A stretch of DNA of 58,897 nt. It comes from a virus. The translations under genes were made by a program, and so were the position numbers. Under the pieces are notes generated by a model. That model ran no database searches and had not been told where the DNA came from. It saw only the letters and a program-made list of their open reading frames with translations. Of the stretch, positions 8,505-57,872 are shown one piece after another; positions within the stretch are counted from its first letter, which is position 1, and every line of letters begins with the position of its first letter. Location: positions 1-58,897 of IMG/VR virus record IMGVR_UViG_3300014962_000007; one strand, 5' to 3'.

Positions 8505-8525
8505 AGGATAAAACTACACTATACT
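8497..8525 (+). promoter_or_regulatory. Probable promoter before the 8554 gene
   Basis: TATACT at 8520-8525 (five of six) with a weak TTGCGT at 8497-8502, spacer 17. The -35 lies at the end of the helicase gene. It would drive the 8554-10189 unit, which ends at a strong terminator. Confidence 0.35.
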
Positions 8526-8553
8526 GAACACCCCAACAACGATGGAGAGCGCG

Positions 8554-8961
8554 ATGACCGAAGAAAGCAAACCCGCCGTACCAGTTGAGAAGCTGGTCAA
8601 GGTGTACCTCAAGATGAACGCCAAGCTGAGTGAGATTCAGGCCGCGTTCAACGCCGAGGAGAAAGCCCTCAAAGAGCAGATGGCCAAGGTGAAGGGTGCC
8701 CTGTTGACATACTGTAAGGAACAGAACGTAGAGTCGGTTCGCACCGAGGAAGGCCTGTTCTACCGTACTGTCAAGGTGAACTACTGGACGAACGATTGGG
8801 AGTCCATGCACAAGTTCATCATCGAGCACAACGCACCGCAACTGCTCCACGAACGCATCCACCAGACCAACCTCAAAGAGTTCATGGATGCACACCCTGA
8901 CTTGCTGCCCCCCGGCCTCAACGTGGACAGCGAATACACCCTTACCGTACGGAGAAAGTAA
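8554..8961 (+). CDS. Conserved phage early protein, coiled-coil N-terminus
   Basis: 135 residues. Residues about 10-60 form a charged helix (KVYLKMNAKLSEIQAAFNAE) and the C-terminal half has the pattern KVNYWTNDWESM, HERIHQTNLKEF, HPDLLPPGLNV, ending in TLTVRRK. This arrangement is recurrent next to phage ssDNA-binding and recombination genes; the overall shape recalls Gam-like nuclease inhibitors, but I cannot assign it. GGAGAG precedes the ATG at 8554; the ATG at 8542 overlaps that ribosome site and is less likely. It shares one base with the next start (TAATG). Confidence 0.75.
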   Translation: MTEESKPAVPVEKLVKVYLKMNAKLSEIQAAFNAEEKALKEQMAKVKGALLTYCKEQNVESVRTEEGLFYRTVKVNYWTNDWESMHKFIIEHNAPQLLHERIHQTNLKEFMDAHPDLLPPGLNVDSEYTLTVRRK

Positions 8962-9242
8962 TGACTGAACCCTTTGTGCCAATCGAAGAACTGGCAAAGC
9001 ATTTCACTGTGTCGGTCTCGACCGTTCGTGCATGGGTGCGACAAGGCATGATTCCCAAGGATACGTACATCAAGGTGGGTAACACCTACCGATTCAGCGT
9101 GTCCAAGGTTGTCAACGCCCTGACTGCCGCACCCAAGGACGAAACGCCGGAACCTGCACCTGTGACCGATACTTCGGCGCTCGAAGCTGAAGAAGCCCCA
9201 GTCCAACTGGAACTTGATTTGAACCCTGACCAAGACATCTAA
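8961..9242 (+). CDS. Excisionase/MerR-like helix-turn-helix protein
   Basis: 93 residues. Residues 5-55 form a winged helix-turn-helix of the excisionase type: PIEELAKHFTVSVSTVRAWV, then GMIPKDTYIKVGNTYRFSVSKV. The rest is an acidic, proline-rich tail (ETPEPAPVTD, LELDLNPDQDI) which may be disordered. No integrase is present, so excision is unlikely; a transcriptional regulator or replication accessory is more probable. It is co-translated with its neighbours (TAATG upstream, AAGGAG eleven bases downstream for the next gene). Its target could be one of the palindromes described in the 54.6-57.7 kb region, which is a guess. Confidence 0.78.
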   Translation: MTEPFVPIEELAKHFTVSVSTVRAWVRQGMIPKDTYIKVGNTYRFSVSKVVNALTAAPKDETPEPAPVTDTSALEAEEAPVQLELDLNPDQDI

Positions 9243-10266: not shown

Positions 10267-13152
10267 ATGGACACAAAAACATTTCTGGAATCGGTGCTGG
10301 GAGACGAGGGTACGTACTGCGTATGGGCGAATCGGATTTCCGACAAGTCCAAGGTGCAGAAGTTCTACCCTACGATTGACGCACTTATCCATGCGGCTGG
10401 CAGTTTGGATGCCGAGGGCTACGACGCATACTTTGCATTGGGTACGTTTGATGAAGCAGGCTCACGTGAAGCCAGCAACGTAAAACAACTCAGGGCGTTT
10501 TTCCTCGACCTCGACTGCGGCCCGTCAAAAGACTACGCATCGCAGAGTGACGCACTTCGCGCACTCCAGCAGTTCTGCAAGACATTGAGCTTGCCCCGCC
10601 CCACCCTGATCAACTCAGGCCGTGGGATTCACGTGTACTGGAGGCTCATAGCCCCGGCGTCACGCGACACATGGCAACCCGTTGCCGACAAACTCAAGGC
10701 TCTGTGCAAGAAGCACGGGCTGAACGCGGACCCGGTGGTGACAGCCGATGCCGCACGCGTGCTCCGAGTACCGGGCACGCACAACCACAAAGACACGCCC
10801 CCGACTGAGGTGAAGCTGGTCGGTGAGCCCGGCGCACCAGTAGAGTATTCGGTGTTCGCGGACCTGATCAACAGTCACGAAATCGACGAAGGCATCTTTG
10901 CCGCCGCCAGAAAGTACGTGCCCCGCGAAGCCGATGCGCTGATGCAGGCACTGTCGGGTAGCTTTGTCAGCCGCTTCAAGACCATCATGATGCGCACGGC
11001 CAAGGGCACCGGGTGCGCTCAACTCGGCGAGGCCGTGGCCAATCAGGCAGACATGTCTGAACCTTTGTGGCGTGCCACACTGTCTGTTGCGAAGTTCTGT
11101 GTTGATGGTGGCAAGGCCATCCACAAAGTTTCTGACAAGCACCCCGACTACACACACGCGGCCACCGAAGCCAAAGCCGACCTGATCAAAGGCCCATACC
11201 TGTGCGAACGGTTCAACGAGTACAAGGCCGGGGTGTGCACCGAGTGCATGCACTGGGGCAAGATCAAGTCTCCCATCTCGCTGGGCCGCGAGGTTGAGGA
11301 AGCCACCGAAGAAGACAACATCGTTGTCCAGACGCCGATCGGCGTGCCCGAGGCAACCCCCATCACGTACGTCATCCCCAAGTACCCCACACCGTTTTTC
11401 CGTGGCAAGTCAGGGGGCGTGTTCAAGCGTGGCAAGCAGGTGTTCAACAAGGAAGGCGAACTCGACGAAGAAGCGTCCAAGGACAAGCTGGTGTACTTCA
11501 ACGACATGTACGTTGTGCGTCGCCTCAAGGACCCCGAGCTTGGCGAATCGCTGGTCATGCGCCTGCACCTACCCAAGGATGGCGTGCGTGAGTTCACCCT
11601 GCCGCTGACTGCCGTGGGGTCTAAGGACGAGTTCCGCAAGCATGTAGCAATGCACGGCGTAGCGGTGCTCAACGTGAACGATTTAATGGAGTACACAATG
11701 CAATGGGTTAACGAGTTGCAGTTGAAGACCGAAGCCGAAGAAGCCCGACGGCAGTTCGGGTGGTCTGACGATCACGAGTCCTTCGCAGTTGGCGGGGCGC
11801 TGGTGTTCAAGGACCGGGTTGAAATCAACGCGCCGTCCGGCGCAACCATGGGGCTGTTCCCATACTTCCAACCCAAGGGCACCCTTGAAGGGTGGAAAGA
11901 GACCATGAAGTTCTACGAGCGCGAGGGTATGGAGCCGCACCAGTTCATGGTGGGCCTGTCTTTCGGTGCTGTGCTCATGGAATTCCAGCCGATCAACGCC
12001 GCCGCGTTCCACATGTACTCGAAGGAATCTGGCCTTGGCAAGACCACGGGCATGCTGGCCGGTGCGTCTATCTGGGGTGACCCAGACCTGTTGATGATGC
12101 AGGAGCGTGACACGATCAACTCCAAGATGAACCGTGCTGAGGTGTACAAGAACATCGTAGGGTACATGGACGAGTTGACCAACACCAAGCCGCAAGACCT
12201 GTCGGACTGGGCCTACCAACTCCCGAGTGGTCTCCAGCGCAACCGCATGGGGCCGAAGGGTAACGTCGAGCGCGTGCGCGGCAAGCCATGGAAGACACTG
12301 TTTGGCACCACCGGCAATACGTCCATGATTGAACGCATCTCGCTGTACAAGGCACTGCCCAAGGCTGAGGCCCAGCGCATCTTGGAGTACCGGGTTGAGC
12401 GCGTCAAGTTCGCCACCAAGGCCGAGACTGATCAGTTTGCCGCCGCAGTCAAGGAAAACTACGGGCACGCCGGTATCGTGTTCGTGCAGTACCTGATGAA
12501 CAATCTGGAAGCGTCCAAGCAGTTGGCCCTTGCGGTCCAGCAGAAAATCGACGTTGCCTCCGGCCTCACGGCAGAAAACCGCTTTTGGTCTGCGCTGGTA
12601 TCCCGTGACATCGCAGGGCTGATGCTGGCCAAGAAAGCCGGGCTGATCAACTGGAAGATCGAACCGATCGTGAAGTGGGCACTGGGTGCCATGGAGATTG
12701 CACAGGGCAACGTGAAGGAGATGGACTCCGATGTTGAATCCACCCTGACCGACTACTTGGCCGAGCACTACACCGGCATCCTGCGTATCAAGTCAACGGA
12801 TGATGCACGCAAGCCCCCGACGATCGACACGATCATTCAGCCGGTCGAGGCTATGCGTAGCAGTCATCTGGTGGCACGATACGAGTACGACATCAAGCGG
12901 CTGTATCTGCTCACCAAGCCCCTCAAAGAGTGGTGCGGTAAACAGCAGATCAACTACGCCGGGTTCGTCGAAGGGCTGAAGACCAGCCGCACCAAGGCCA
13001 CCAAGGTCAAGATGCGGTTGTCCCGAGGCACGTACATGAACCTGCCACCCGCCGACGTTATTGCCCTCGACTGCACGGAATTCATGAACGATGAAACTGA
13101 GCAAGCAATGGCTACAACCGCCGCGTTGCGCCAGCAACAGGCTGAAGATTGA
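10267..13152 (+). CDS. Primase-polymerase / DUF927-type helicase
   Basis: 961 residues combining priming and unwinding. The N-terminal 270 residues are an archaeo-eukaryotic-type primase: FFLDLDCG (D81, D83), then SGRGIHVYWRL (H122) and VPGTHNHKD. A middle segment has cysteines (C-x-x-C near 323). The C-terminal half is a helicase resembling DUF927: YSKESGLGKTTG (G589-T593, Walker A), a following acidic strand in VGYMDELTN, and FGTTGNTSM as sensor-like. It would supply primers and open the origin for the family A polymerase; no separate DnaB or DnaG is present. The start at 10267 has only weak ribosome-site character. Confidence 0.85.
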   Translation: MDTKTFLESVLGDEGTYCVWANRISDKSKVQKFYPTIDALIHAAGSLDAEGYDAYFALGTFDEAGSREASNVKQLRAFFLDLDCGPSKDYASQSDALRALQQFCKTLSLPRPTLINSGRGIHVYWRLIAPASRDTWQPVADKLKALCKKHGLNADPVVTADAARVLRVPGTHNHKDTPPTEVKLVGEPGAPVEYSVFADLINSHEIDEGIFAAARKYVPREADALMQALSGSFVSRFKTIMMRTAKGTGCAQLGEAVANQADMSEPLWRATLSVAKFCVDGGKAIHKVSDKHPDYTHAATEAKADLIKGPYLCERFNEYKAGVCTECMHWGKIKSPISLGREVEEATEEDNIVVQTPIGVPEATPITYVIPKYPTPFFRGKSGGVFKRGKQVFNKEGELDEEASKDKLVYFNDMYVVRRLKDPELGESLVMRLHLPKDGVREFTLPLTAVGSKDEFRKHVAMHGVAVLNVNDLMEYTMQWVNELQLKTEAEEARRQFGWSDDHESFAVGGALVFKDRVEINAPSGATMGLFPYFQPKGTLEGWKETMKFYEREGMEPHQFMVGLSFGAVLMEFQPINAAAFHMYSKESGLGKTTGMLAGASIWGDPDLLMMQERDTINSKMNRAEVYKNIVGYMDELTNTKPQDLSDWAYQLPSGLQRNRMGPKGNVERVRGKPWKTLFGTTGNTSMIERISLYKALPKAEAQRILEYRVERVKFATKAETDQFAAAVKENYGHAGIVFVQYLMNNLEASKQLALAVQQKIDVASGLTAENRFWSALVSRDIAGLMLAKKAGLINWKIEPIVKWALGAMEIAQGNVKEMDSDVESTLTDYLAEHYTGILRIKSTDDARKPPTIDTIIQPVEAMRSSHLVARYEYDIKRLYLLTKPLKEWCGKQQINYAGFVEGLKTSRTKATKVKMRLSRGTYMNLPPADVIALDCTEFMNDETEQAMATTAALRQQQAED

Positions 13153-13354
13153 CGACCTCGCCCCGGATGGTGTGTGCATCCGGGTGTCGTGGGAAAAGTT
13201 TGTGCCGGGAGCGTCAGTGTTCGTCCCCTGCATCAACACGGTGGAGTGCGTGAGGCAGTTCAACGAAATCGCTCAGCACAATGACTGGGTGTGGGACTCC
13301 CGAATCGGCATCGAAGGAGGCCGTTGGGGGGTTCGCTTTTGGCGAGTGCTGTGA
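13091..13354 (+). CDS. Conserved hypothetical phage protein
   Basis: 87 residues, overlapping the primase gene by 62 bases. The core GVCIRVSWEKFVPGASVFVPCIN, then CVRQFNEIA and GIEGGRWGVRFWRVL, resembles a small family common in phages: a beta-strand pair, FVPC motif, helix, and final GLRVWR-like strand. Function unknown. It is the last plus-strand gene before the convergent junction. The long overlap makes the start uncertain; a downstream start would remove part of the first strand. Confidence 0.68.
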   Translation: MKLSKQWLQPPRCASNRLKIDDLAPDGVCIRVSWEKFVPGASVFVPCINTVECVRQFNEIAQHNDWVWDSRIGIEGGRWGVRFWRVL

Positions 13355-13367
13355 TAGGATTTGCACC

Positions 13368-13383
13368 GTTGGCAGTTGCCAAC
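13368..13383. repeat. Perfect 16-base inverted repeat
   Basis: GTTGGCA-GT-TGCCAAC, a seven-base perfect inverted repeat with a two-base centre, 25 bases before the terminator at the convergent junction. It could be a DNA-binding site or an extra hairpin in the 3' end of the early transcript. Confidence 0.7.
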
Positions 13384-13407
13384 CATCGCGTTCTCCTAGT
13401 GGAATTC

Positions 13408-13436
13408 GCCCCCGGCTCAACACCGGGGGCTTTTTT
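13408..13436 (+). terminator. Terminator at the junction of the early and late blocks
   Basis: GCCCCCGG (13408-13415), loop CTCAACA, CCGGGGGC (13423-13430), then TTTTTT on the plus strand. It abuts the stop of the giant minus-strand gene. In the minus direction the hairpin is not followed by a real U-tract, so it mainly stops the early transcript. Confidence 0.88.
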
Positions 13437-16400
13437 CATTCCCCGTCGTCGTCGAAGATCGACACGTCTCGGTCGAACTCGGCGGCGTTGGCCAGCAGTT
13501 CATTGCGCATGAGCTTGTTGAACGTGACCCCGTGGTACATGGTTGCCGTCGTGCGCATGTGCTGTGCCAGCGAGTTCTTGATCACCGTCGGGGTAACCAG
13601 ACCCGGATGCTTCTGGCCCAGCTTGACAAGTTCTTCCATGTAGTCGCTGGCGGCGTCGCCGTCCCCTGCACGCAGGGCCACGTAGTATTTTCGCAGGAGG
13701 TTGGTACGCTTCTCCAGCGTACGGCGCTCGACGTTCTTCTCGACCGCGTTTTCTTCCAACTGACGCATGTACTCAGCGGGTGCAAACCCGAGTGCCTGCG
13801 CAAGGGAATGGCCGAGGCCAACTTCGCCCACGATGGGGTCACCGCGCATGGTGTTTGTACCTTCCGCGAGGAACCGGCCACCCTTGATCACGTTACCGAA
13901 GCCAGCCGGGGCTACCTGCTCCAGACCACGAAGCGTTTCGCCGTCGAAGATCAGCTTGACGCCACGGATGATGCGGTCGCCCACACCGTACACCGGGCCA
14001 CCGAACAGTTGCAGGAAGCTCAGCACCGCGTTGTCTTGGTCGCGGTATCCGGTGTCGTGCAGCAGCAGGTCAGTCAGGCCGATACGGTTGGCGACCGCGG
14101 TACCCGTCAGGTAGTTCAACGCACCGTTGAACCGACCCTCGCCCATGTACTTACGGGCAGCGGTCTCGAAGTCATCATCGTCGTCACCCTTCAGGAACAG
14201 GTTGTACAGTGCGGACACGAGGCCGAACATCGGGATACCCTGCGCCCCAGCCAGCAGTGCAGTCGAGGCGTAGATACCAGCAATCTGGCGCTTGGCAGCG
14301 GCGCGGACCTGTGGGTCTTCCCCGATCAGCGCGTCATGCGTTGTTTTGAACAGCATGTAGTACATCGACACGCCGTAGCGCTTGTACATGAACACCATCT
14401 TGCCGATCGAGTTCTTCGCCAGCAGGGGCGCACTGTTAGCCGAAGCGCCACCGTTGAGCAGTTCGGCAGAGCGAATCGCTTCTTCAGCAGCGGCGGTGCG
14501 GTCTTGTGCAGTGAGTTCTTTCCCGCCGTTGGCTTTGCGCATGCGCTCAAGTTCGAGCCGGTAGGCTGCAACCATCGAGACCTGCCGGTTCATGCGTTCA
14601 CCGTGGTGGAACACAAACCCGGACCATGCGTTGATCTTGGCCAAGGGGCCGTCGGCTGCACCGGATTCCAGCACGTCGCTGGTCATGGAGCGGCTGAGCA
14701 AGCCGTACTGGCTGGACAACTCGGCCAACTCACGTAGATCGAGAATGGCCTTTTCGTTGTCGGTCAGGTCTTTCTTCTTGGCCAGTGCGTCGAAGTCGTA
14801 GTTGTCGATGGAATATCCAGCCGTCAACTCCACAGGGTCACCACCGCCCACAGTCTTGGCTTTGCGCTTGCGGCCAGAGCCGAAGAACAGTCGTGTGGCT
14901 GCGCCAATGGCCTTGTTCGCGTCACCGTATCCGTACTTACCACCAAGGTAAGGCATGACCACCATGGGCAACTGAGTCGTGTTGACAAGTGCAGACGAGA
15001 CGTTGAAGCCGAGGGTCCAGCCGAACGCCGTGGACGTGGTCAGCTTGGCGAACGGTGAGATGTCCGGGGAGACCATCGACTTGATGTGGCGGTCCATGGT
15101 GTCGAACAGCATACGTGCTTCTTCCGTGCGGTCCTTGGTGTCCACGTACTCCTGCATCTCGTCGCGCAGCTTGTACATCTTGGCCCCGTATTCGAGGTTG
15201 GCCAACTGGTGCGCCATGCTGATGGACTTGGAGTAGAAGACGTCAGCCGCATCGGTCATTGCACCGAGCGTACCCAGACGCGAACGGAACGACTGCGCAA
15301 ACGACGATTCGGGCAGCGTGTCGAGAAACACCCGCATGATTTCGTCGGTCACGGTCGGGTCAACCTTGTTGGCGTCCAGCACCTTGATGATGCTGTTGAC
15401 AAACGACGTGGGCGGGGCATCCCGGTATGTACGCTTGCCGGTCGGCGAAGACTTTTGCACCGACTTCACATCCACGTTCGGGTCGGCCTTGAGTTCCCGG
15501 ATTGCCCGTGCCTGCTCCACCGAGTTTTGGAACGCTACCTTGTAGTATTCCATCTGGCCGTCAGCGTTCTTGGCATTGAATGTTACCCAGTGATCGCCTT
15601 GGCGCATCAGCGGGAAGTACGGCTCAATCTTGCCCTTCACCGCGAGGCGCTGGTAGATTTCCTTGCGCAGCTTCTCGGCTTCCTTGGGGTCCTTCACCGA
15701 CGAGTCGATGCGGCTGAACAGCAGGTTGATCAGTTGTTCGTGGGATTCGGCGTAGGCATCGCGCATCTGTTTGTAGATGGCTTGACCCTCTGGGCCGAGT
15801 GCTTTCCACTTGGCCTGCAAGCTGTCCCAAACTGCCTGCTTGTCCTTGTCGCTCTTGGTGCTCTTGCCCTTGTAGCTGTCGCGTGCCTTGCTCGGGTCAA
15901 CTTCTTCCAGCGTGGACTGCATCACCAGATCGTTGAGTGCGGATTCCTTCTCGGGGTTGCCCTTGGTCCACTTGCTGATGTTGCTGTACGTTGCATCCAC
16001 CGCACGGCGGCGCTCGTCGATCGCACCGCCCCACTGCTTCTCAAGGGTGTCGAGCTTCTTGGCCATGGGGATGACCTTGGCAGCGACGTCCGTGAGTGCG
16101 TTGAGGGGCAGGCTGCGCAAGATTGTGGTCTTCGTGAGGTTGGGGATTTTCTCCCGCAGCACTTCGTAGATACCACCGACGACGCGGTTGTCCATGACCG
16201 GCATGCTCAGGACCTGAGCGTCCATGGCCTTGAACACATCTTTGGATGCGCCCAGCAGGGAGGCCTCGTACATGGACCCCACAGGTGCGTTGTTCGGCGA
16301 CACGATCTGCATGATCGCCACGTCAGCCGAGTCCAGCGCCGAGTCGATACCCTTGGTGGGCATGCCCATGACATTACGCAGGAAGTTGCCCACGGCACGG

Positions 16401-19400
16401 ATGAATCGGCGCAGTGCGCTGATGGGTTCGCCCTTGGGGTTGATTTGTGCCAGCGTTTGCTGGAACTCGGGGTTGCTGAAGACCTCGGACACAAACTCGT
16501 CGAGCGACTTGGCACCGTACGCCGAGCCCAGCGAATCCTTGACCGTGTTGAACAGGTCTGTCAGTTGTTTGGTGGCTGCGTGCCCCTTGTTGCCCAGCAC
16601 CTTCAGGACCGCCGCGTGCGTTGCTTCGTGCAACAGGGCGTGCGGGTTCAGACCGAACTTGGAGTCCAGCTTGATGGTGTTTGTGGTGGCATCGTACGAG
16701 CCAGCCAGCGACCGGCCCGACGGCGACTTGAGGTCATCGACAATCTGCACTTTGACGCCACCGATGGCCTTGGCCAGTGCACGGGCAATCTTGGCGCTAC
16801 GGCTGGTCATGTTCCCGGCGAACTCGTTGAGGGCCGCAGACACATCGCCAGCTTTGAGGGCCGCGACGACGCGGGGATGCAGCGGCAACGACACACGCAC
16901 CATGTCAGCAGTGAGTTCAGCGTCCTCGTCCATCTGGATTCGGGTCTCGCGGTCGAGCACCTGTTTGGCGTTAAACCAGCCCATGCCTCGGCGGGTCATG
17001 GACTCTTCCTTGATGAAGAAGCGTTCAAGTTGCTGGAGTATCTTGGCCTTCTGGGCGTCGTTCAGGGAGTTGTAGTACGCCCGTGCGTACTTACCCCCAG
17101 TGCCGGGGTAGAAGTCACCACTGCCTTCGCGGCCAAACTTGAGGTCAGGCATCTCACCACGTACCAGCGCGGCGGTGATGTCGTTGAGACCCTTGGCCAC
17201 GTCACGTTGTGGGAAAGTCGCCACGAAGATGTCATGGGCCAAGTCCTCAAGCGCACGCTCAGGGTTCTGTTCCTGCATGCTGCTGTATGCACCGAAGTCG
17301 CCTTTGGGCGCGGCCTTCTTGGTCTCGGCCTTGGGCTTTGCGGCCTCATCGGCTTTGCGCTGGGCTTCCTCTGCACGTTGCAGCATCTCCCAAGCCTCGT
17401 TGGTCTTGGTCTTGGTCTTGGGTTCGGATTTGGACTCAATGATGTCTGTTTCAAGGAGGTTGTCCAGCATCTTTTCATCGCTGACAACACCTTGTTTTCC
17501 TAGATTCACATCTGCCAACCGCGCCCCGTCTACCCTAATGCTTACCGCGTCAATCTTCGTAGGGTCTTCAGCCGTGCGGGTAATTGTTACCGTCGCGGGT
17601 TTGCCGTCGTACGTGACACGATATGTGGTCTTGGTCTCCTTCAGTGCACCCGGCTCCACCTTCTCTCGTTTTCCAGCGTCACGTACAGGCTGTCCACGAT
17701 CTCCCAGTCCAGCGGACTCAGGCTTTTCAGTTGGCTTGGCACCAGCAGGTCGCTCAGCGGCTGCTGGTTTTTGTACGACTGGTTCACGATCCGCAGTGCG
17801 AGTTCCAGTTGCTCCACCGTCAGTTCCTGACTTCTCACCACGTCCTCGACTTGGCTCACTTGGCTTCTCCTTCGCAGGCTTCTTGGCACCCTTTGTCTCC
17901 GTCGGGAACAGTTCTTGTTGCTTGGCCATGCCGCCAAACGCCTGCATAGCCATACGTTCGATGGCCTGCTTGGTGGCAGGCTTGACGTTTGCGTTGGTGC
18001 GCACGCGCCCAAACACTTCGCGCATGACGGGCCAGTTGGCCTTGTCGGCCATGTCGAGGTTGAGCAGTTGCTTGTAGAAGCCCGACTGCTTGGGCAACCC
18101 CGTTTTGTCCAGCACTTCGGCAGTCAGCGTGGTGACGAACGGCTCGGTGGACGTGTGTGAGCGTGGGGCTTCGCCGGAGCGCCCGGTGAACGGGGCTTCC
18201 TGTCCAGCCAACTCTTCCTCAGAGAACGCCTCGGGCGCTTTGCCCTTGGGCTTACCCATACCGGGAAAGCCCATCTGTTCGGGCTCGCGCTGCACCTTCT
18301 TCTCAGGTACTTGGGCTTCCAACTCCTCGGTCTGCCCTTTGGGTTGCTCGACAGTGGGCTCCTCAGGTGCCACCGGCTCTTCCATCAAGCGCAGGTCGTA
18401 CGCTCGCTTGATTAGGTTCTGTTCCCGCTCGGTCAGGTTCGGATTGGTGAAGCCCTCGCGCTTGAGGGTTTGCACGAACGCTTTGGGGATGTTCCCCACG
18501 TCCGATTCCACGATAGGAAGTAACAACTCAAGGCGCTTGTCCTGAGTCGTCCTCTCTTCCTTGGCCTTAATCCTTCCGTCGAGTTCGGCAAGATCGGATT
18601 CAAACTTCAGGCGCTCTTTCTCGGCCTTGGCTTTCTCGGCCTTACGCGCATCTTCTGCGTACATCTCGTTGATGAGATCATCTACGGTCATGCCGCCTTG
18701 AAGGTCAAGCCCAAGTTGCTCTTCAACACTCGGTACTTCGTCGGCAGCAAGCTCTTCCGCTGCCGCTTCTTTGGGGGTTACACGCCCACGCCCCGGAACT
18801 TCCACGGTGCCATCTGCACGCTCTACGCCGGGTAGGTCGAGTTGGCCTTTTTCAGGCTCTTGCGCGAAGGTCTCGGCGAGCGCCGCTTCCTTGCCGCGAC
18901 GTGCAAGCGTACGGTCAAACTCGGACAGCCCAGCCAATGGGTCAGAGGTGCGCAGGTCTTCCTTGCGCTGGGCCGCTGCACCTTCCTTGGACTTGATGTA
19001 CTGGTCGTACTCGGCCTTGGACGTGATGACCGACCCATCGGGTAGGGCCACGGGGGTGAACGGTTCGGGGGTGTACCCCAAAAGTTGTTGCTCGGCAGTC
19101 TTGGCCTCGGTGGTAGGTGGAGCTTCAGGTTTCTCGCCCGGCTTCGCTGCACGGGCTTTGCGGCCCAGCGTCAGATCAAGGATCAAGCTGGCCATCGCGC
19201 CAACACCGGCACCATACGCGCCTTCTTCACCCGTACCGGCCAGCACCGGCTGGTTGGGGTCGTATACGCCTTTGGCAATGAGATTCTGTGCCAGCTTCTG
19301 CGCCGCTTCGGTTGCGCCTTCGACACCCCCACGAGCCAATGCCGTAGTGATGATGCTCTTCATCGGCCCGATTTCTGGAGCGAGGATGTCCAGCAGGCCA

Positions 19401-19972
19401 GTAGGTGCACCCAGCAAGGTGGCCATGCGGCGCTCTGCGCCTGTGACCCCTTTGGCTTCAGCGGATTCTCGCGCTTCACCTGCACCGGCAGCAATACCCA
19501 GACCTGCACCTGCGGCACGGCCAGCCAACCCCAAGGGGCCAAGGCCGAAGAACGGTAGGGTTGACCCCAGACCTTCGCCGAGGCGGCGACCCACTGAATC
19601 TTCGTACCCGGCAGCGGCCTCGAACGGCTTCTTGGCTACGCCAGCGATCTCTTTGATCTTTTCCCGTGCGGCCTTTTCGGTATCGTCTGGCAGCATGGCT
19701 GCGATACCAGTTCCTGCGGTTTCGAGCAGGCCAACAGCGCCGGGCACCACGCCCTTGAATGCTTCCTTGACGTTGCCACCGAAGGTGGTCTCAGGCTTTT
19801 CCTTCTGGGCACGTAGCTCATCGAGGCGCTGCTGGATGCGCGTGTCTTCGGCGTCCATCGACGGGGCGGACGTCTGCAAGCGCTTTGCAATCTGTGCCAA
19901 CCTACGCGCCGCGTCTACATCTCCCGCTGCATCTGCGTTACGCAGGGCGGTCAGCACATTTTGCAACTCCAT
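13436..19972 (-). CDS. Giant polyvalent internal virion protein with zincin-like motif
   Basis: 2,178 residues, the last gene of the late operon. The N-terminus has glycine/alanine-rich hydrophobic stretches near residue 140-175. A long, charged, probably disordered region (to about 900) follows. HEATH at H1115-H1119 (HExxH) lies in NPHALLHEATHAAVLKVLG, the zinc-binding helix of a metalloprotease-like domain. The C-terminal third has hydrophobic segments (AFGWTLGFNVSSALVNTTQLP, YASTALLAGAQGIPMFGL) and KGDDDDDFETAARKYMGE, resembling large polyvalent protein LPD38 regions. Such proteins are ejected with phage DNA and may act on the host envelope or cytoplasm. AAAGG precedes the ATG. Confidence 0.82.
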   Translation of the reverse strand: MELQNVLTALRNADAAGDVDAARRLAQIAKRLQTSAPSMDAEDTRIQQRLDELRAQKEKPETTFGGNVKEAFKGVVPGAVGLLETAGTGIAAMLPDDTEKAAREKIKEIAGVAKKPFEAAAGYEDSVGRRLGEGLGSTLPFFGLGPLGLAGRAAGAGLGIAAGAGEARESAEAKGVTGAERRMATLLGAPTGLLDILAPEIGPMKSIITTALARGGVEGATEAAQKLAQNLIAKGVYDPNQPVLAGTGEEGAYGAGVGAMASLILDLTLGRKARAAKPGEKPEAPPTTEAKTAEQQLLGYTPEPFTPVALPDGSVITSKAEYDQYIKSKEGAAAQRKEDLRTSDPLAGLSEFDRTLARRGKEAALAETFAQEPEKGQLDLPGVERADGTVEVPGRGRVTPKEAAAEELAADEVPSVEEQLGLDLQGGMTVDDLINEMYAEDARKAEKAKAEKERLKFESDLAELDGRIKAKEERTTQDKRLELLLPIVESDVGNIPKAFVQTLKREGFTNPNLTEREQNLIKRAYDLRLMEEPVAPEEPTVEQPKGQTEELEAQVPEKKVQREPEQMGFPGMGKPKGKAPEAFSEEELAGQEAPFTGRSGEAPRSHTSTEPFVTTLTAEVLDKTGLPKQSGFYKQLLNLDMADKANWPVMREVFGRVRTNANVKPATKQAIERMAMQAFGGMAKQQELFPTETKGAKKPAKEKPSEPSRGRGEKSGTDGGATGTRTADREPVVQKPAAAERPAGAKPTEKPESAGLGDRGQPVRDAGKREKVEPGALKETKTTYRVTYDGKPATVTITRTAEDPTKIDAVSIRVDGARLADVNLGKQGVVSDEKMLDNLLETDIIESKSEPKTKTKTNEAWEMLQRAEEAQRKADEAAKPKAETKKAAPKGDFGAYSSMQEQNPERALEDLAHDIFVATFPQRDVAKGLNDITAALVRGEMPDLKFGREGSGDFYPGTGGKYARAYYNSLNDAQKAKILQQLERFFIKEESMTRRGMGWFNAKQVLDRETRIQMDEDAELTADMVRVSLPLHPRVVAALKAGDVSAALNEFAGNMTSRSAKIARALAKAIGGVKVQIVDDLKSPSGRSLAGSYDATTNTIKLDSKFGLNPHALLHEATHAAVLKVLGNKGHAATKQLTDLFNTVKDSLGSAYGAKSLDEFVSEVFSNPEFQQTLAQINPKGEPISALRRFIRAVGNFLRNVMGMPTKGIDSALDSADVAIMQIVSPNNAPVGSMYEASLLGASKDVFKAMDAQVLSMPVMDNRVVGGIYEVLREKIPNLTKTTILRSLPLNALTDVAAKVIPMAKKLDTLEKQWGGAIDERRRAVDATYSNISKWTKGNPEKESALNDLVMQSTLEEVDPSKARDSYKGKSTKSDKDKQAVWDSLQAKWKALGPEGQAIYKQMRDAYAESHEQLINLLFSRIDSSVKDPKEAEKLRKEIYQRLAVKGKIEPYFPLMRQGDHWVTFNAKNADGQMEYYKVAFQNSVEQARAIRELKADPNVDVKSVQKSSPTGKRTYRDAPPTSFVNSIIKVLDANKVDPTVTDEIMRVFLDTLPESSFAQSFRSRLGTLGAMTDAADVFYSKSISMAHQLANLEYGAKMYKLRDEMQEYVDTKDRTEEARMLFDTMDRHIKSMVSPDISPFAKLTTSTAFGWTLGFNVSSALVNTTQLPMVVMPYLGGKYGYGDANKAIGAATRLFFGSGRKRKAKTVGGGDPVELTAGYSIDNYDFDALAKKKDLTDNEKAILDLRELAELSSQYGLLSRSMTSDVLESGAADGPLAKINAWSGFVFHHGERMNRQVSMVAAYRLELERMRKANGGKELTAQDRTAAAEEAIRSAELLNGGASANSAPLLAKNSIGKMVFMYKRYGVSMYYMLFKTTHDALIGEDPQVRAAAKRQIAGIYASTALLAGAQGIPMFGLVSALYNLFLKGDDDDDFETAARKYMGEGRFNGALNYLTGTAVANRIGLTDLLLHDTGYRDQDNAVLSFLQLFGGPVYGVGDRIIRGVKLIFDGETLRGLEQVAPAGFGNVIKGGRFLAEGTNTMRGDPIVGEVGLGHSLAQALGFAPAEYMRQLEENAVEKNVERRTLEKRTNLLRKYYVALRAGDGDAASDYMEELVKLGQKHPGLVTPTVIKNSLAQHMRTTATMYHGVTFNKLMRNELLANAAEFDRDVSIFDDDGE

Positions 19973-54642: not shown

Positions 54643-54934
54643 TGTCGCAGGGACAGGCGGCGAACGGCTAATGGTAAGAAGTTATGGGGTGGGGGGTCAC
54701 AAAAGTATGTTGCGACAGATGTAGCGATAACCCGAATTTCGTCAACTACTGTAAAAAATTACAGTGGTATGGGGTCCCAACTCAAGGACGTGGGGGGTGT
54801 TTGAGCGTAATAGTAGACCTTCGCAGCCAACGGGACTCCAAACCATGCGCGGGGGGATGGGTACGGGTGGGTCACCGCGCCCCCCTATGTTAGGGATTCC
54901 CTATCGCCGCCAGCCTATCGGATTGTGCCAATCC
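54643..54934. other. Non-coding regulatory stretch between the divergent promoters
   Basis: No convincing gene. It contains a seven-base inverted repeat ACTGTAA-AAAA-TTACAGT (54748-54765), G-rich tracts, and the first GTTAGGGA palindrome (54889-54903). Two overlapping short frames on the plus strand lack ribosome sites. Confidence 0.6.
54889..54903. repeat. GTTAGGGA palindrome, copy 1 (imperfect)
   Basis: GTTAGGGATTCCCTA, followed by T where the other copies have AC. It lies about 30 bases upstream of the early promoter's -35. Confidence 0.6.
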
Positions 54935-54963
54935 TTGACAAACCATAACATGTTATGCATAAT
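54935..54963 (+). promoter_or_regulatory. Strong early promoter with overlapping operators
   Basis: TTGACA 54935-54940, 17-base spacer, CATAAT 54958-54963. The spacer holds the perfect palindrome ATAACATGTTAT (54945-54956), and TTATGCATAA (54953-54962) covers the -10. A repressor bound here would block RNA polymerase directly. Start point near 54970; leader of about 55 bases to the gene at 55024. Confidence 0.7.
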
Positions 54964-55023
54964 ACATCCCATCGACGACGCATCTAGTCGATACCAACTC
55001 AACCCGATGCACAAGGAACTGAA

Positions 55024-55554
55024 ATGAAAGCAACTAACGTGAAACTGTCCAACGCGACCATCTCTGCCATCGGTGCATGGTCGGGCTCTACCCTGAAAGC
55101 TGACAAGTCCAAGGTCAAGGCGGTGGACGCCTTGCACGCCGATGGTGTGACGGCTGACATGCTTAAGGCACCGGGCAAAGATGAACCCCGCACTCTGTAC
55201 GAATCGGTGTGCACCGGCATCGTGACCGGCTTCGCGGCCAATGTTCAGGCCCTGCTCAAGAAGGACACCAAAAGCCTGAGCGAAGCACAGAAAAAAGACA
55301 AGCGCTACTGGCAGCAGCAAATCGGCTCCAAGCTCAAGGATTTGCGCAATGCATTGTCACGGCGTGAGCGTGATGCGTCCGGTGAGTCTGACGGTGCAGA
55401 AGCTGACAAGTCAACGTGGGAAGCCACCAAGCGCAAGGTGCTCAGCGAGATCATCACTCAGGCACAAAAGAAGGAAAGCACTACGATCAAGGACATGGCC
55501 GCGTTCATCAAGGACTTGCAATCGGCACTGGCCCGAATCCCGGCTAACGCCTAA
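55024..55554 (+). CDS. Conserved early protein, first gene after the strong promoter
   Basis: 176 residues, very rich in lysine and alanine. MKATNVKLSNATISAIGAWS at the start, then VDALHADGVTADMLKAPGKD, TGFAANVQALLKKDTKSLSE, DKRYWQQQIGSKLKDLRNAL and a helical end. The RYWQQQIGSKLKDLRNALSR segment appears in many phage early proteins. No catalytic or classic HTH motif; the basic surface suggests nucleic acid or host-protein binding. It is transcribed alone between a strong promoter and a strong terminator, so it should be made at high level very early. AAGGAA lies five bases before the ATG. Confidence 0.75.
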   Translation: MKATNVKLSNATISAIGAWSGSTLKADKSKVKAVDALHADGVTADMLKAPGKDEPRTLYESVCTGIVTGFAANVQALLKKDTKSLSEAQKKDKRYWQQQIGSKLKDLRNALSRRERDASGESDGAEADKSTWEATKRKVLSEIITQAQKKESTTIKDMAAFIKDLQSALARIPANA

Positions 55555-55561
55555 CCCACAG

Positions 55562-55589
55562 AGCCCCGCTTCGGCGGGGCTTTTTTTTT
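55562..55589 (+). terminator. Strong terminator after the early gene
   Basis: AGCCCCGC-TTCG-GCGGGGCT (eight-base stem, TTCG loop) then TTTTTTTT. It isolates the 55024 gene from the repeat region. Confidence 0.95.
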
Positions 55590-55609
55590 GCCCATTCGAT
55601 TTGTGATGC

Positions 55610-55632
55610 CATGTTAGGGATTCCCTAACATG
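55610..55632. repeat. GTTAGGGA palindrome, copy 2 (23-base perfect)
   Basis: The longest copy: symmetric over 23 bases with a central T, CATGTTAGGG at the left end and CCCTAACATG at the right. It is followed four bases later by a 24-base element (55637-55660). Confidence 0.85.
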
Positions 55633-55636
55633 GCTT

Positions 55637-55660
55637 TGATACCAGTTCCAAGAGCGGCGT
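55637..55660 (+). repeat. Direct repeat, copy A (24 bases)
   Basis: Begins TGATACCAGTTCC and ends AGAGCGGCGT. Identical 24 bases recur at 55735-55758, each just after a GTTAGGGA palindrome. Confidence 0.85.
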
Positions 55661-55711
55661 AGTGCCCGGACTTCGCACCCAACCAGCCCTCGACAGCCAC
55701 GCGCCCTGCGT

Positions 55712-55730
55712 TGTTAGGGATTCCCTAACA
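55712..55730. repeat. GTTAGGGA palindrome, copy 3
   Basis: TGTTAGGGATTCCCTAACA, perfectly symmetric over 19 bases; the matching direct repeat follows four bases later. Confidence 0.85.
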
Positions 55731-55734
55731 CCCC

Positions 55735-55758
55735 TGATACCAGTTCCAAGAGCGGCGT
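55735..55758 (+). repeat. Direct repeat, copy B (24 bases)
   Basis: Identical over 24 bases to 55637-55660; the pair starts 98 bases apart. Together with the palindromes they form a composite repeat near 48 bases long. Confidence 0.85.
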
Positions 55759-55801
55759 GGAGCCCCAACGATGCCAACCCCGAAGGGGCGGGGAGCGCGA
55801 C

Positions 55802-56349
55802 TGTTCCACGTTTAGGCTGTTCTAATGTTCCACGTTTAGACTGTTCCAATGTTCTGTGTGGACAATGTTCCAATGTTCGTTAGGGACTCCCTAACACTGT
55901 TCCAAATCAACACACAATCTCGCTGTTATGGTGTGTTGCGTTGCTTAAATTTTGTGCAATGTTCCGGCAAATGTTCCAAAAAAGGGTGAAATGTTCCGTT
56001 GCTGTGGAACATTTTAGTTTTGTGCATATACGCACAGGCAATGGCACAGGGTTGTAGCTGGTGCTGTTTTATAACTATCAAATCTTATCTAATCTTATCT
56101 TTTTATATACTGTTCTAATGTTCCACTTTTTTAGAGAATATACCCACTACCCCAAACACACTTCCACAACACGTGGTAATTAATTAGGACAAGAAAAAAA
56201 GTGTGGAAGTGATCGCGGGGGGGGGTGTATGTCTTTTTTCCCCCAAAAAAGCGAACATTGTGGAACATCAAGGACTTACGTGACTACACTGTAAGAACAT
56301 CAAGCACAAATCACATCCACAACCCGCTTGACACTTCCACACTGGAACA
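55802..56349. repeat. TGTTCCA / TGGAACA cluster (iteron-like)
   Basis: Exact TGTTCCA or TGGAACA at 55802, 55826, 55842, 55866, 55898, 55972, 56005, 56119, 56261 and 56343, plus near copies (TGTTCTA 55818 and 56111; TGTTCC 55960, 55992). ATGTTCCACGTTTAG-like units sit 24 bases apart at 55802 and 55826. The final copy lies inside the promoter spacer at 56328. They could be initiator iterons or repressor sites. Confidence 0.75.
55879..55895. repeat. GTTAGGGA palindrome, copy 4
   Basis: GTTAGGGACTCCCTAAC, centre C, embedded among TGTTCCA copies. Confidence 0.85.
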
Positions 56350-56356
56350 CTACACT
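56328..56356 (+). promoter_or_regulatory. Promoter with a TGGAACA box in the spacer
   Basis: TTGACA 56328-56333, 17-base spacer, TACACT 56351-56356. A TGGAACA box occupies 56343-56349, so the protein that binds the cluster could also control this promoter. Transcription would start about 23 bases before the gene at 56386. Confidence 0.55.
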
Positions 56357-56385
56357 TCCACACACTCAACCCACTGGAGCACCCC

Positions 56386-56811
56386 ATGAAAGTCCGAACA
56401 TTTGACATTCGCACCCGCTACACCTACGACGAGGGTCTGACCACCACCCACAACACGCCACTCTACGACAACAAGACCGCCCGACCCATCCCACCGACCG
56501 CCACCGTCCGAGTCAACGGGCAATACCTGACCCCCAAGCAGATCGTGTACATCCTGCACCACGCACCTGCACCGACCACATCGGACACCGACCCACCGCT
56601 GGCGCTCCCCCCATACATCCTCAACGTGGATGGCAACCCCCACAACATACGCATCGACAACCTCCGTGCATCGCTCACGTCACGGCGCTGGGGCGACAGG
56701 TGCAAAGATGTTGAGGTGAACAACATCATCATCCCCCGAGACTTGCTGGCACTGATGACCGAGGACGACCTCGCACGCTTCGGCATAACCCGGAATGACC
56801 TTCAAGAGTAA
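56386..56811 (+). CDS. Hypothetical protein, possible HNH-derived DNA-binding domain
   Basis: 141 residues. Central segment TVRVNGQYLTPKQIVYILHH, then PYILNVDGNPHNIRIDNLRA-SL, whose D-G-N and N-L pattern resembles the second half of HNH_3/homing nucleases (Asn-x-x-Asn-Leu), but the catalytic HH/His cluster is not clear, so the nuclease may be dead and kept for binding. Charged C-terminus DLARFGITRNDLQE. ACTGGAGC precedes the ATG. It follows the origin-like region, so an origin-binding or regulatory role is imaginable; only weak evidence. Confidence 0.6.
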   Translation: MKVRTFDIRTRYTYDEGLTTTHNTPLYDNKTARPIPPTATVRVNGQYLTPKQIVYILHHAPAPTTSDTDPPLALPPYILNVDGNPHNIRIDNLRASLTSRRWGDRCKDVEVNNIIIPRDLLALMTEDDLARFGITRNDLQE

Positions 56812-56842
56812 CTATCAGAACATAGCATAGGGTGTGAAAACA

Positions 56843-56871
56843 TTGACAAACGTAACATCCTATGTTATACT
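56843..56871 (+). promoter_or_regulatory. Strong promoter with palindromic operator in the spacer
   Basis: TTGACA 56843-56848, 17-base spacer, TATACT 56866-56871. TAACAT-CCT-ATGTTA (56853-56867) fills the spacer and resembles the TAACATGTTA half-sites at 54945-54956, so one repressor may serve both. It drives the small-gene cluster from 56972. Confidence 0.7.
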
Positions 56872-56908
56872 GTAGTCTGTTCAGTCGAGCTATGCCTCAA
56901 CGGAACAG

Positions 56909-56927
56909 TGTTAGGGACTCCCTAACA
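56909..56927. repeat. GTTAGGGA palindrome, copy 5
   Basis: TGTTAGGGACTCCCTAACA, 19 bases symmetric, in the leader of the 56972 gene cluster, about 38 bases after the promoter. Confidence 0.85.
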
Positions 56928-56971
56928 GAACATTTGAATCAACCAAGAATGGAACAAACCAAGGAAACACC

Positions 56972-57139
56972 ATGAACGCACCACTCACCCGCCACGTCCC
57001 GTTCGCCGCCCTATCCATCGGGCAGATGTTCATCATGCACGGCACCGTGCACGTGAAGAAGTCGCTGACCACCGCACTCAACTGCCTCAACATGGGCCGT
57101 GTGCGCATCACCGAACAGACCACCGTGGAGATTGCATAA
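56972..57139 (+). CDS. Small hypothetical early protein
   Basis: 55 residues: MNAPLTRHVPFAALSIGQMF, IMHGTVHVKKSLTTALNCLN, MGRVRITEQTTVEIA. Predicted strand-helix pattern; no cysteine pair or named motif. AAGGA lies six bases before the ATG. It is first in a run of small, tightly packed genes served by the promoter at 56843 and is one base from the next start. Function unknown, perhaps host takeover. Confidence 0.68.
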   Translation: MNAPLTRHVPFAALSIGQMFIMHGTVHVKKSLTTALNCLNMGRVRITEQTTVEIA

Positions 57140-57140
57140 C

Positions 57141-57368
57141 ATGAACACCATGTCCGCGACTCGCACCTACACCTCGCGCCAACTCATGCGCGTGACAATC
57201 CCTGCCGGGTTCCTTGCGGTCAACGTTGCGCGACTGGGCGCAAAGCCCCGCTGGCAAATGAAACATGACCCGACCCGCGCCGTAACCTGCGCCACTTGTG
57301 GCGAATCGAATACCGCACCGACTGGCCCGTGCTGGCTTTGCGGCATCCCCCTTGGAGGTGACAAATGA
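57141..57368 (+). CDS. Small zinc-ribbon protein
   Basis: 75 residues. Two CxxC pairs (CATCGESN and CWLCGIPL) form a zinc ribbon in the second half; the first half reads RTYTSRQLMRVTIPAGFLAV. Start at 57141 is one base after the previous stop; the longer frame from 57099 is not needed. It overlaps the next gene by four bases. Probably nucleic acid or host-protein binding. Confidence 0.7.
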   Translation: MNTMSATRTYTSRQLMRVTIPAGFLAVNVARLGAKPRWQMKHDPTRAVTCATCGESNTAPTGPCWLCGIPLGGDK

Positions 57369-57580
57369 CCAAGCGCCTCAAACCCATGTGCGCCATCTGT
57401 GGCGACACGTTCAGCCCCAAGCGTGCCAACGCAGGCTACAACAGTTGCATGCCTTGCGGCGATGCACTTGCCCGTGCAACTATCCGCACCATTGCCCCCA
57501 TGCACAAGTCCAACTACATGCTGTTCACCAACATGGACGACCTCAAGGGCATCAACAACAAGGGCGGCTTGCACCGCTAA
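57365..57580 (+). CDS. Conserved small protein with treble-clef-like cysteines
   Basis: 71 residues. CAICGDTFSPKRANAGYNSC followed by MPCG gives four cysteines, then MHKSNYMLFTNMDDLKGINN, a C-terminal signature common to many phage proteins. ATGA overlap with the previous gene. Proteins with this pattern are usually small DNA- or RNA-interacting factors. Function unknown. Confidence 0.75.
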   Translation: MTKRLKPMCAICGDTFSPKRANAGYNSCMPCGDALARATIRTIAPMHKSNYMLFTNMDDLKGINNKGGLHR

Positions 57581-57611
57581 CACCAACCAACCAACCAACC
57601 AAGGAGCAATC

Positions 57612-57872
57612 ATGAAACAACCCGACGACCTGTTCACACAAGAACTGCCCGGCTACGCCGCCCCTGCACAACACCCGTTAGGGAATCCCCTAACAACTCA
57701 CCACGTGCCAACACCGCTCAAGACCTATTACCGCTTCTACGTCGAGGCCCACGACGGCCTGACCACCGAATGGTGCGGCCTGACCAAGAAGCAAGCCCGA
57801 GACATGTACGCATACACCAGTGCACATCAACCCAGCAACGTCATCGCCTTCGGGTGGGAGGAGCAGACATGA
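57612..57872 (+). CDS. Small hypothetical early protein
   Basis: 86 residues: KQPDDLFTQELPGYAAPAQH, KTYYRFYVEAHDGLTTEWCG, KKQARDMYAYTSAHQPSNVI, ending FGWEEQT. An alpha/beta pattern with a YYRFYVE strand and a KKQARDMY helix. AAGGAG precedes the ATG at 57612, after a CCAA-repeat leader (57585-57603). A GTTAGGGA palindrome (57677-57694) lies within the coding sequence, an unusual place for an operator. ATGA overlap with the next gene. Confidence 0.68.
   Translation: MKQPDDLFTQELPGYAAPAQHPLGNPLTTHHVPTPLKTYYRFYVEAHDGLTTEWCGLTKKQARDMYAYTSAHQPSNVIAFGWEEQT
57677..57694. repeat. GTTAGGGA palindrome, copy 6 (inside a gene)
   Basis: GTTAGGG-AATC-CCCTAAC, with a four-base centre instead of three. Located within the 57612-57872 gene. 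Confidence 0.7.

Follow-up and report, generated by a model that had tools for sequence, protein, structure and literature searches.

Palindromes and genes of the early region

The complete IMG/VR virus record IMGVR_UViG_3300014962_000007 (58,897 bases, hereafter the window) was analysed with respect to a palindrome, GTTAGGG-N3/N4-CCCTAAC, that occurs at six sites between positions 54,889 and 57,694, around the first early gene. This gene, here termed gene A (55024-55554, + strand), encodes a 176-amino-acid (aa), all-alpha protein, which we propose as the palindrome-binding protein. Gene A is preceded by promoter P1 (54935-54963, + strand; TTGACA-17-CATAAT, 11/12), predicted to drive it from the consensus match only, and is followed directly on its 3' side by an intrinsic-terminator-like stem (55560-55583, + strand). 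Promoter P2 (56843-56871, + strand; TTGACA-17-TATACT) likewise matches the consensus at 11/12 positions and has a TG ahead of the second hexamer. Both are predicted to be strong, near-consensus sigma-70-like promoters, which supports the designation of this stretch as an early control region in the initial annotation.

Four of the six sites are perfect copies of GTTAGGGANTCCCTAAC, one carries a mismatch, and one has a 4-base spacer; none is assigned to a strand. Site 1 (54889-54905, GTTAGGGATTCCCTATC) is the mismatched copy and lies upstream of P1, its centre at about -74 from the predicted transcription start of gene A, a position that is maintained across the palindrome types described below. 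Sites 2 (55613-55629, GTTAGGGATTCCCTAAC), 3 (55713-55729, GTTAGGGATTCCCTAAC) and 4 (55879-55895, GTTAGGGACTCCCTAAC) fall in the non-coding stretch beyond the terminator of gene A, site 4 inside a region of TGTTCCA repeats. Site 5 (56910-56926, GTTAGGGACTCCCTAAC) is in the leader behind P2, with its centre at about +40. Site 6 (57677-57694, GTTAGGG-AATC-CCCTAAC) is the copy with the 4-base spacer and lies within the gene at 57612-57872, as had been noticed before; a 4-base-spacer copy is apparently found at the same place in the relatives L072, L074 and G018. The initial annotation had described six copies with arms of at least seven bases and a longest symmetry of 23 bases. The number is confirmed, but the mismatch in the 54889 copy leaves its right arm without a perfect seven, and the starts given at 55610, 55712 and 56909 mark real sites but take in extra symmetric flanking bases. 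The most symmetric copy, site 2, is a perfect palindrome over 27 bases rather than 23 (55608-55634).

The palindrome is clustered, as had been claimed: with up to two mismatches allowed, no further copy was found in the rest of the record. Five exact arm pairs with a spacer of 3-5 bases were seen, against 0.00019 predicted by a first-order Markov model of the window, and no 7-base arm was present more than once in 60 simulated windows. The excess of the palindrome over chance is overwhelming. Compared with the related contig G011, the window is without the operon section that holds genes C, MoxR and VWA, which was probably lost at the assembly ends (58897 / 1).

Several other elements accompany the palindromes. 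A second repeated element, GATACCAGTTCCAAGAGCGGCG, is found at 55638-55659 and 55736-55757, 6-8 bases behind palindromes 2 and 3, and degenerate versions of it (ACCAGTT...) stand behind palindromes in the non-coding stretch of many relatives. Between about 55803 and 56016, TGTTCCA/TGTTCYA repeats and a 13-pair stem (55987-56016) lie within a 0.8-kb non-coding stretch, which is a candidate replication origin or further control region. The promoter spacers carry palindromes of their own, CATAACATGTTATG in P1 and AACATCCTATGTT in P2, which differ between the promoters and have similar counterparts in relatives; they are possibly sites of another regulator.

Lineage-specific palindromes in related phages

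An exact scan of IMG/VR found the GTTAGGG-type palindrome in 103 stretches, with about 240 copies and many contigs carrying 4-9 of them. In 85,000 bacterial and archaeal genomes (257 Gb), there were 10 matches, each of them single and in unrelated taxa, which is about the chance level and makes a host factor, as the initial annotation had also considered, an unlikely partner. The GTTAGGG arms are nearly invariant in the contigs that carry them: 240 are exact, 20 have a single mismatch and 3 have two. A spacer of 3 bases separates GTTAGGG from CCCTAAC in 260 cases, one of 4 bases in 43 and one of 5 in 9; lengths of 0-2 never occur, nor do those of 6-17. In longer GTTAGGG contigs, the sites are restricted to one stretch, for instance 7.2 kb in G011 (60.8 kb long) and 12.1 kb in G018 (65.9 kb long), where they mainly occupy the gaps between tandem early genes. 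Conservation in related phages, on which the initial annotation had made its proposal depend, was found: IMG/VR relatives keep 4-14 palindromes each, restricted to the early operon.

We then searched 80 loci that surround the early gene C (a 295-aa protein in G011) for repeated palindromes, with no sequence presupposed. Nearly all have a multi-copy palindrome, and its sequence is lineage-specific. The commonest type is GTTAGTG-N3/4-CACTAAC; the other arms at these loci are GTTAGGC, GTTAGTC, TGTAGTG, GGTAGTC, GGTACGG, GTTATAA, TGTATAC and TCCTGAC, and whole contigs added GTTATAC, GTTAGYC, TCCTTAC and TCTAGTC, giving at least 14 arm sequences in total. Within any one genome, the copies are concordant. 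On the gene C tree (86 rows), the palindrome type changes at least 17 times. Many GTTAGTG phages have hybrid sites, made of one GTTAGTG half and one GTTAGGG half. Contig L275 carries TGTAGTG palindromes around a matching gene A (7603-9201) and GTTAGTC palindromes downstream (10363-13477); it is a recombinant or an assembly chimera, as mixed contigs of this kind, with two palindrome types, could arise from metagenome assembly.

The positions of the sites are maintained as well. Counted over contigs with a recognised main palindrome, which are partly redundant, 103 of 108 have a site no more than 150 nucleotides (nt) upstream of gene A (typically 105-140 nt, 23-34 nt in a few types), and 103 of 116 have one 10-80 nt ahead of the MoxR-like gene; many further sites are found 15-40 nt upstream of the start codons of later early genes. 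Gene calls in unannotated contigs were simple predictions of our own. Since the sites keep their place before individual early genes, the role of an initiator or centromere-like site, which the initial annotation had offered as an alternative, is less likely.

Joint change of gene A and palindrome

Gene A was detected in 138 contigs (some overlapping), and the palindrome-bearing contigs without it were only truncated ones or those in which gene A has diverged past detection. The joint change of gene A and palindrome is seen in L226 and L227, whose gene C is identical and whose DNA, along most of a stretch of roughly 20 kb, has about 97-98% identity, falling to 91-92% in the blocks nearest gene A; gene A itself is only 19% identical, and values of 16-19% were found among such near-identical phages. 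In the homologous gaps, GTTAGGGAATTCCCTAAC is swapped in place for GGTAGTCCGYGGACTACC, and the flanks are restored within about 10-30 bases. The segments without a counterpart are the gene A locus, one small open reading frame and one further gene, so that gene A is the only gene replaced, two indel-like segments aside. Among pairs with gene C 90-100% identical, the mean identity of gene A is 81% when the palindrome type is the same and 31% when it differs.

Comparisons within gene A narrow this further. L283 and L287, with 86-93% identical DNA and different palindromes, have gene A proteins that are 30% identical in the N-terminal part and 95% in the C-terminal part, whereas in G018 and G012, which have a common palindrome, the N-terminal part is 85% and the C-terminal part 25% identical. 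Palindrome specificity therefore follows residues 8-117 and not the C-terminal part. The central helix of gene A tracks the palindrome. Among proteins of less than 90% identity, residue 102 is Ser in 27 of 27 with GTTAGGG and Ala in 23 of 23 with GTTAGTG. Residue 106 is Asp in all four types whose innermost arm base (base 7) is G, and Lys or Arg in six of the seven types with C (permutation over 12 types, p = 0.0005, uncorrected for the approximately 560 residue-base pairs inspected). A further scan through gene C provided 29 previously unused contigs. Where a call was possible and a palindrome was seen, base 7 was correctly called from residue 106 in 15 of 16, counting as correct L412, whose arm TTAGGGA-N3 is the GTTAGGG type shifted by one base and was scored as a miss by the script. 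The correct calls include two new arm types, TGTAGTC (L383) and CTTAGGG (L388); several of the 15 are close relatives of known types, and the test is thus supportive but not independent throughout.

The AlphaFold2 model of gene A, built with 53 natural relatives, is all-alpha with a mean predicted local distance difference test score (pLDDT) of 89, and residues 40-120 modelled alone reach 95. Residues 102 and 106 share one long helix in the model (87-119). The window protein matched no Pfam or PHROG family and no helix-turn-helix (HTH) family, and its profile had no match at E ≤ 1 among PDB sequences; two of the 53 relatives gave a weak match (E 0.0008) to a PHROG HTH family. Foldseek and VIA-align, run on gene A and on residues 40-120, returned no structural match above noise, the best Z being 4.8 for the whole protein and 5.4 for residues 40-120 (sigma factor region 4), both within noise. 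Gene A is thus a protein for which no relative was found, and a new fold is not claimed. Neither the early-region DNA nor two gene A proteins had a match in INPHARED, and one gene A protein compared with PLSDB had none either. In two GTTAGTC phages, a protein stands at the place of gene A (L255, 7886-8506; L252, 3714-4331) that is too diverged for a call of relatedness by profile comparison.

The partner suggested in the initial annotation was the HTH_17/MerR-like protein at 8961-9242 (+ strand), which is conserved in the group. It was considered and rejected, because its recognition region does not change with the palindrome: it is identical in G018 (GTTAGGG) and G040 (GTTATAC) and so cannot set the specificity. 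The partner would instead be gene A, and the joint change described above strongly supports the more general idea of a phage-encoded palindrome-binding protein. Also conserved in the group is a 2178-aa protein (window positions 13436-19972, - strand) with an LPD39 domain and a DarB-like C-terminal half.

Proposed action of gene A and comparison with known systems

We propose that the six palindromes probably serve as operators for gene A, the first early protein of the phage itself, which would act as a dimeric early regulator. Direct binding of gene A to the palindromes is very likely, given how closely the two sequences change together, and a dimer is presumed on each palindrome. Gene A would be made at once from P1, its N-terminal helical domain would read the half-site GTTAGGG via the long helix, and two copies would bind the palindrome as double-stranded DNA. 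The sites to be bound lie upstream of the gene A promoter, in the P2 leader and, in relatives, just ahead of the ribosome-binding sites of most early genes. Bound gene A would most likely limit early transcription as an elongation roadblock, possibly with bridging of sites; the early operon would thereby shut itself down, and a same-type phage that co-infects might have its early genes shut down likewise. A roadblock or a bridged silent state is compatible with sites that precede ribosome-binding sites, mostly with no promoter nearby, and with the site at about +40 behind P2; the one at about -80 of P1 is compatible with autoregulation, whether positive or negative. The silencing or looping of the region suggested in the initial annotation is plausible. 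The balance tips slightly towards gene A repressing rather than activating; that it acts on co-infecting phages is a tentative suggestion.

Several observations weigh against this proposal. Spacers of 3, 4 and 5 bases are unusual for a rigid dimer. The site upstream of gene A, at about -70 to -92, has the position of activators as well as repressors, and the roadblock is assumed, since most internal sites have no promoter nearby. With no solved relative of the gene A fold, a DNA-binding fold is not independently recognised. Residue 106 was chosen after the fact among the residue-base pairs, and the rule has exceptions: the TGTATAC type has Ala106, the base-7 call was wrong for L399 (Arg106 with GTTAGTA), and in three unseen contigs residue 106 falls outside the rule, one of which (L409) also breaks the residue 102 rule by combining Ser102 with GTTAGTG. 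Many contigs overlap or are closely related and are partly redundant, and the count of six sites covers only the window, whose early operon is partial, the C/MoxR/VWA section being missing.

The same spacers are the main point for a different reading, in which the gene A product binds RNA hairpins with a 7-bp stem and a loop of 3-5 bases in 5' leaders and so controls the translation of early genes. Spacer lengths of 3-5 and never 0-2 bases are as a loop would need, and many sites lie at a near-constant 15-40 nt upstream of start codons (22-23 nt in the phage MinM2, described below). However, an RNA stem should favour G.U, and the broken arm pairs on the early mRNA strand show no such bias (G.U 9, A.C 9, other 49), which argues for DNA. 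The gene A transcript would not include the conserved copy ahead of the gene, since this precedes the predicted promoter, lying at about -70 to -92 in most types. One stem sequence common to all copies of a genome would be needless for a purely structural hairpin, some types are fully self-complementary and have no free loop (TGTATACATATGTATACA), and the hybrid GTTAGTG/GTTAGGG sites are as expected of a DNA operator with two half-sites. We therefore regard the RNA reading as improbable, and the sequence evidence gives good confidence that the palindromes would be bound as DNA. Equally doubtful is that gene A is an activator or anti-silencing factor that activates its own promoter from about -70 to -92, the internal sites marking weak promoters. 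The site centres do group around -70, -80/-82 and -92 relative to the predicted start, and class I activators use such helical spacings; but the phasing is not significant with types as units, P1 and P2 are already near consensus, and internal sites, being 15-40 nt from start codons, are too close to them for a downstream promoter to fit in at such a distance.

The palindromes may alternatively mark partition, replication or packaging, as parS-like or origin-like elements with gene A as a nucleoprotein organiser. Several sites do lie in the repeat-rich non-coding stretch at 55.6-56.4 kb, which has the look of a possible origin, and the sites are evenly spread over 5-14 kb; yet in every type they stay in place ahead of individual genes, 14 records yielded no integrase or resolvase, and no ParB family is represented among the window proteins, so we judge such a role unlikely. 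Hairpin promoters for an N4-like virion RNA polymerase would explain 7-base arms with a 3-base loop upstream of each early gene, and the large virion proteins and the early MoxR/VWA pair would suit such a phage. This is nonetheless highly improbable: a motif scan of the predicted proteins of 11 records revealed no single-subunit RNA polymerase motif in the large proteins, the 2178-aa protein is DarB-like, and the window has strong sigma-70-like promoters. A functionless mobile palindromic repeat, to which the alike loops within one phage (L021, L034, L019) might point, is just as hard to credit and is already contradicted, as the sites are swapped in place rather than inserted and follow gene A.

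A further and more speculative reading can be considered, namely that incompatibility between phages without a detected integrase is set by gene A together with its palindromes: each type would silence the early genes of same-type co-infecting relatives and thereby drive rapid switching among many DNA specificities. Gene A would then represent a DNA-binding family without known relatives, with a recognition code partly readable at residues 102 and 106. We hold this possible rather than likely. Frequent switching of specificity on a near-identical backbone is expected if same-type phages interfere, as for immunity repressors. In 14 records, possibly incomplete, no match to PF00589 (integrase) or PF00239 (serine recombinase) was found, so that ordinary lysogenic immunity is not supported. 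As to how scattered sites change jointly, a guess, and the simplest one, is that two matched sets are both maintained and that the backbone is homogenised by recombination.

Collectively, the sequence comparisons point to an undescribed, fast-diversifying switch over phage early genes. They would assign DNA sites to an orphan early protein that the sampling recovered from at least 138 environmental virus contigs, some of which overlap. With 14 or more natural specificities, phage pairs that are nearly identical but have a different gene A and palindrome, and single residues tracking single bases, the group would provide a natural laboratory for the joint change of a regulator and its scattered sites, a long-standing question in phage immunity specificity. 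Should co-infecting phages be a target of gene A, specificity of superinfection would also be a property of phages without sign of lysogeny.

Multi-copy palindromes in a related early module are also found in cultured phages. In Synechococcus phage MinM2 (OQ594354; also Pag-Yong1/Pra-JY27), the sequence analysed has 17 GGTTCA-N3/4-TGAACC sites (GGTTCAGNCTGAACC; 18 when other spacings are allowed), and as in the group described here they stand ahead of start codons, 12 of the 17 being 18-82 nt before early start codons and many at 22-23 nt. Records of one length, 65,014 bases, are deposited under all three host names, so the hosts given there are doubtful. Profile comparison showed no relation between gene A and the first early protein of MinM2, and no gene A was detectable. 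Rhizobium phage RHph_TM27A carries about 50 near-exact copies of GTTACC-N5/6-GGTAAC over 46 kb, in which no gene A homologue was detected; unlike those of the present group, its copies are genome-wide and lie inside genes as well as between them. KPP25 has no such palindrome.

Among regulators, the lambdoid CI/Cro operators are 17-bp dyads, which in lambda form two clusters of three operators overlapping promoters. The present sites resemble them in being dyads of about 17 bp with lineage-specific half-sites and a co-evolving recognition helix, and differ in that they are single copies spread over 5-14 kb and in that the protein is unrelated. With the start-associated sequence (SAS) and extended SAS (ESAS) of Cluster K mycobacteriophages, the palindromes share only their place, as repeated elements directly upstream of many start codons; the SAS is asymmetric (GGGATAGGAGCCC), the ESAS is a pair of 17-bp imperfect repeats, and their binding protein was not identified in that study (PMC3203893). 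The nearest system in its working, with a different protein family, is that of the Cluster A mycobacteriophage stoperators, whose dispersed sites diverge together with the repressor, as seen for L5 and TipsytheTRex (PMC6550527, PMC9283540). Stoperators are 13-bp asymmetric sites oriented with transcription and present in more than 20 copies genome-wide in temperate phages, and their repressor binds as a monomer with an N-terminal HTH (PMC6550527, PMC9283540). In contrast, the sites described here are palindromes of 16-20 bp limited to the early region, and gene A, the first early gene, is without a recognised HTH, occurs in phages in which no integrase or resolvase was found, and is not sequence-related to the L5/TipsytheTRex repressor, as judged from the PDB and HTH family searches. 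Common to both are a single regulator per phage, whose site recurs many times in short intergenic gaps and near promoters, and the divergence of regulator and site sequences together.

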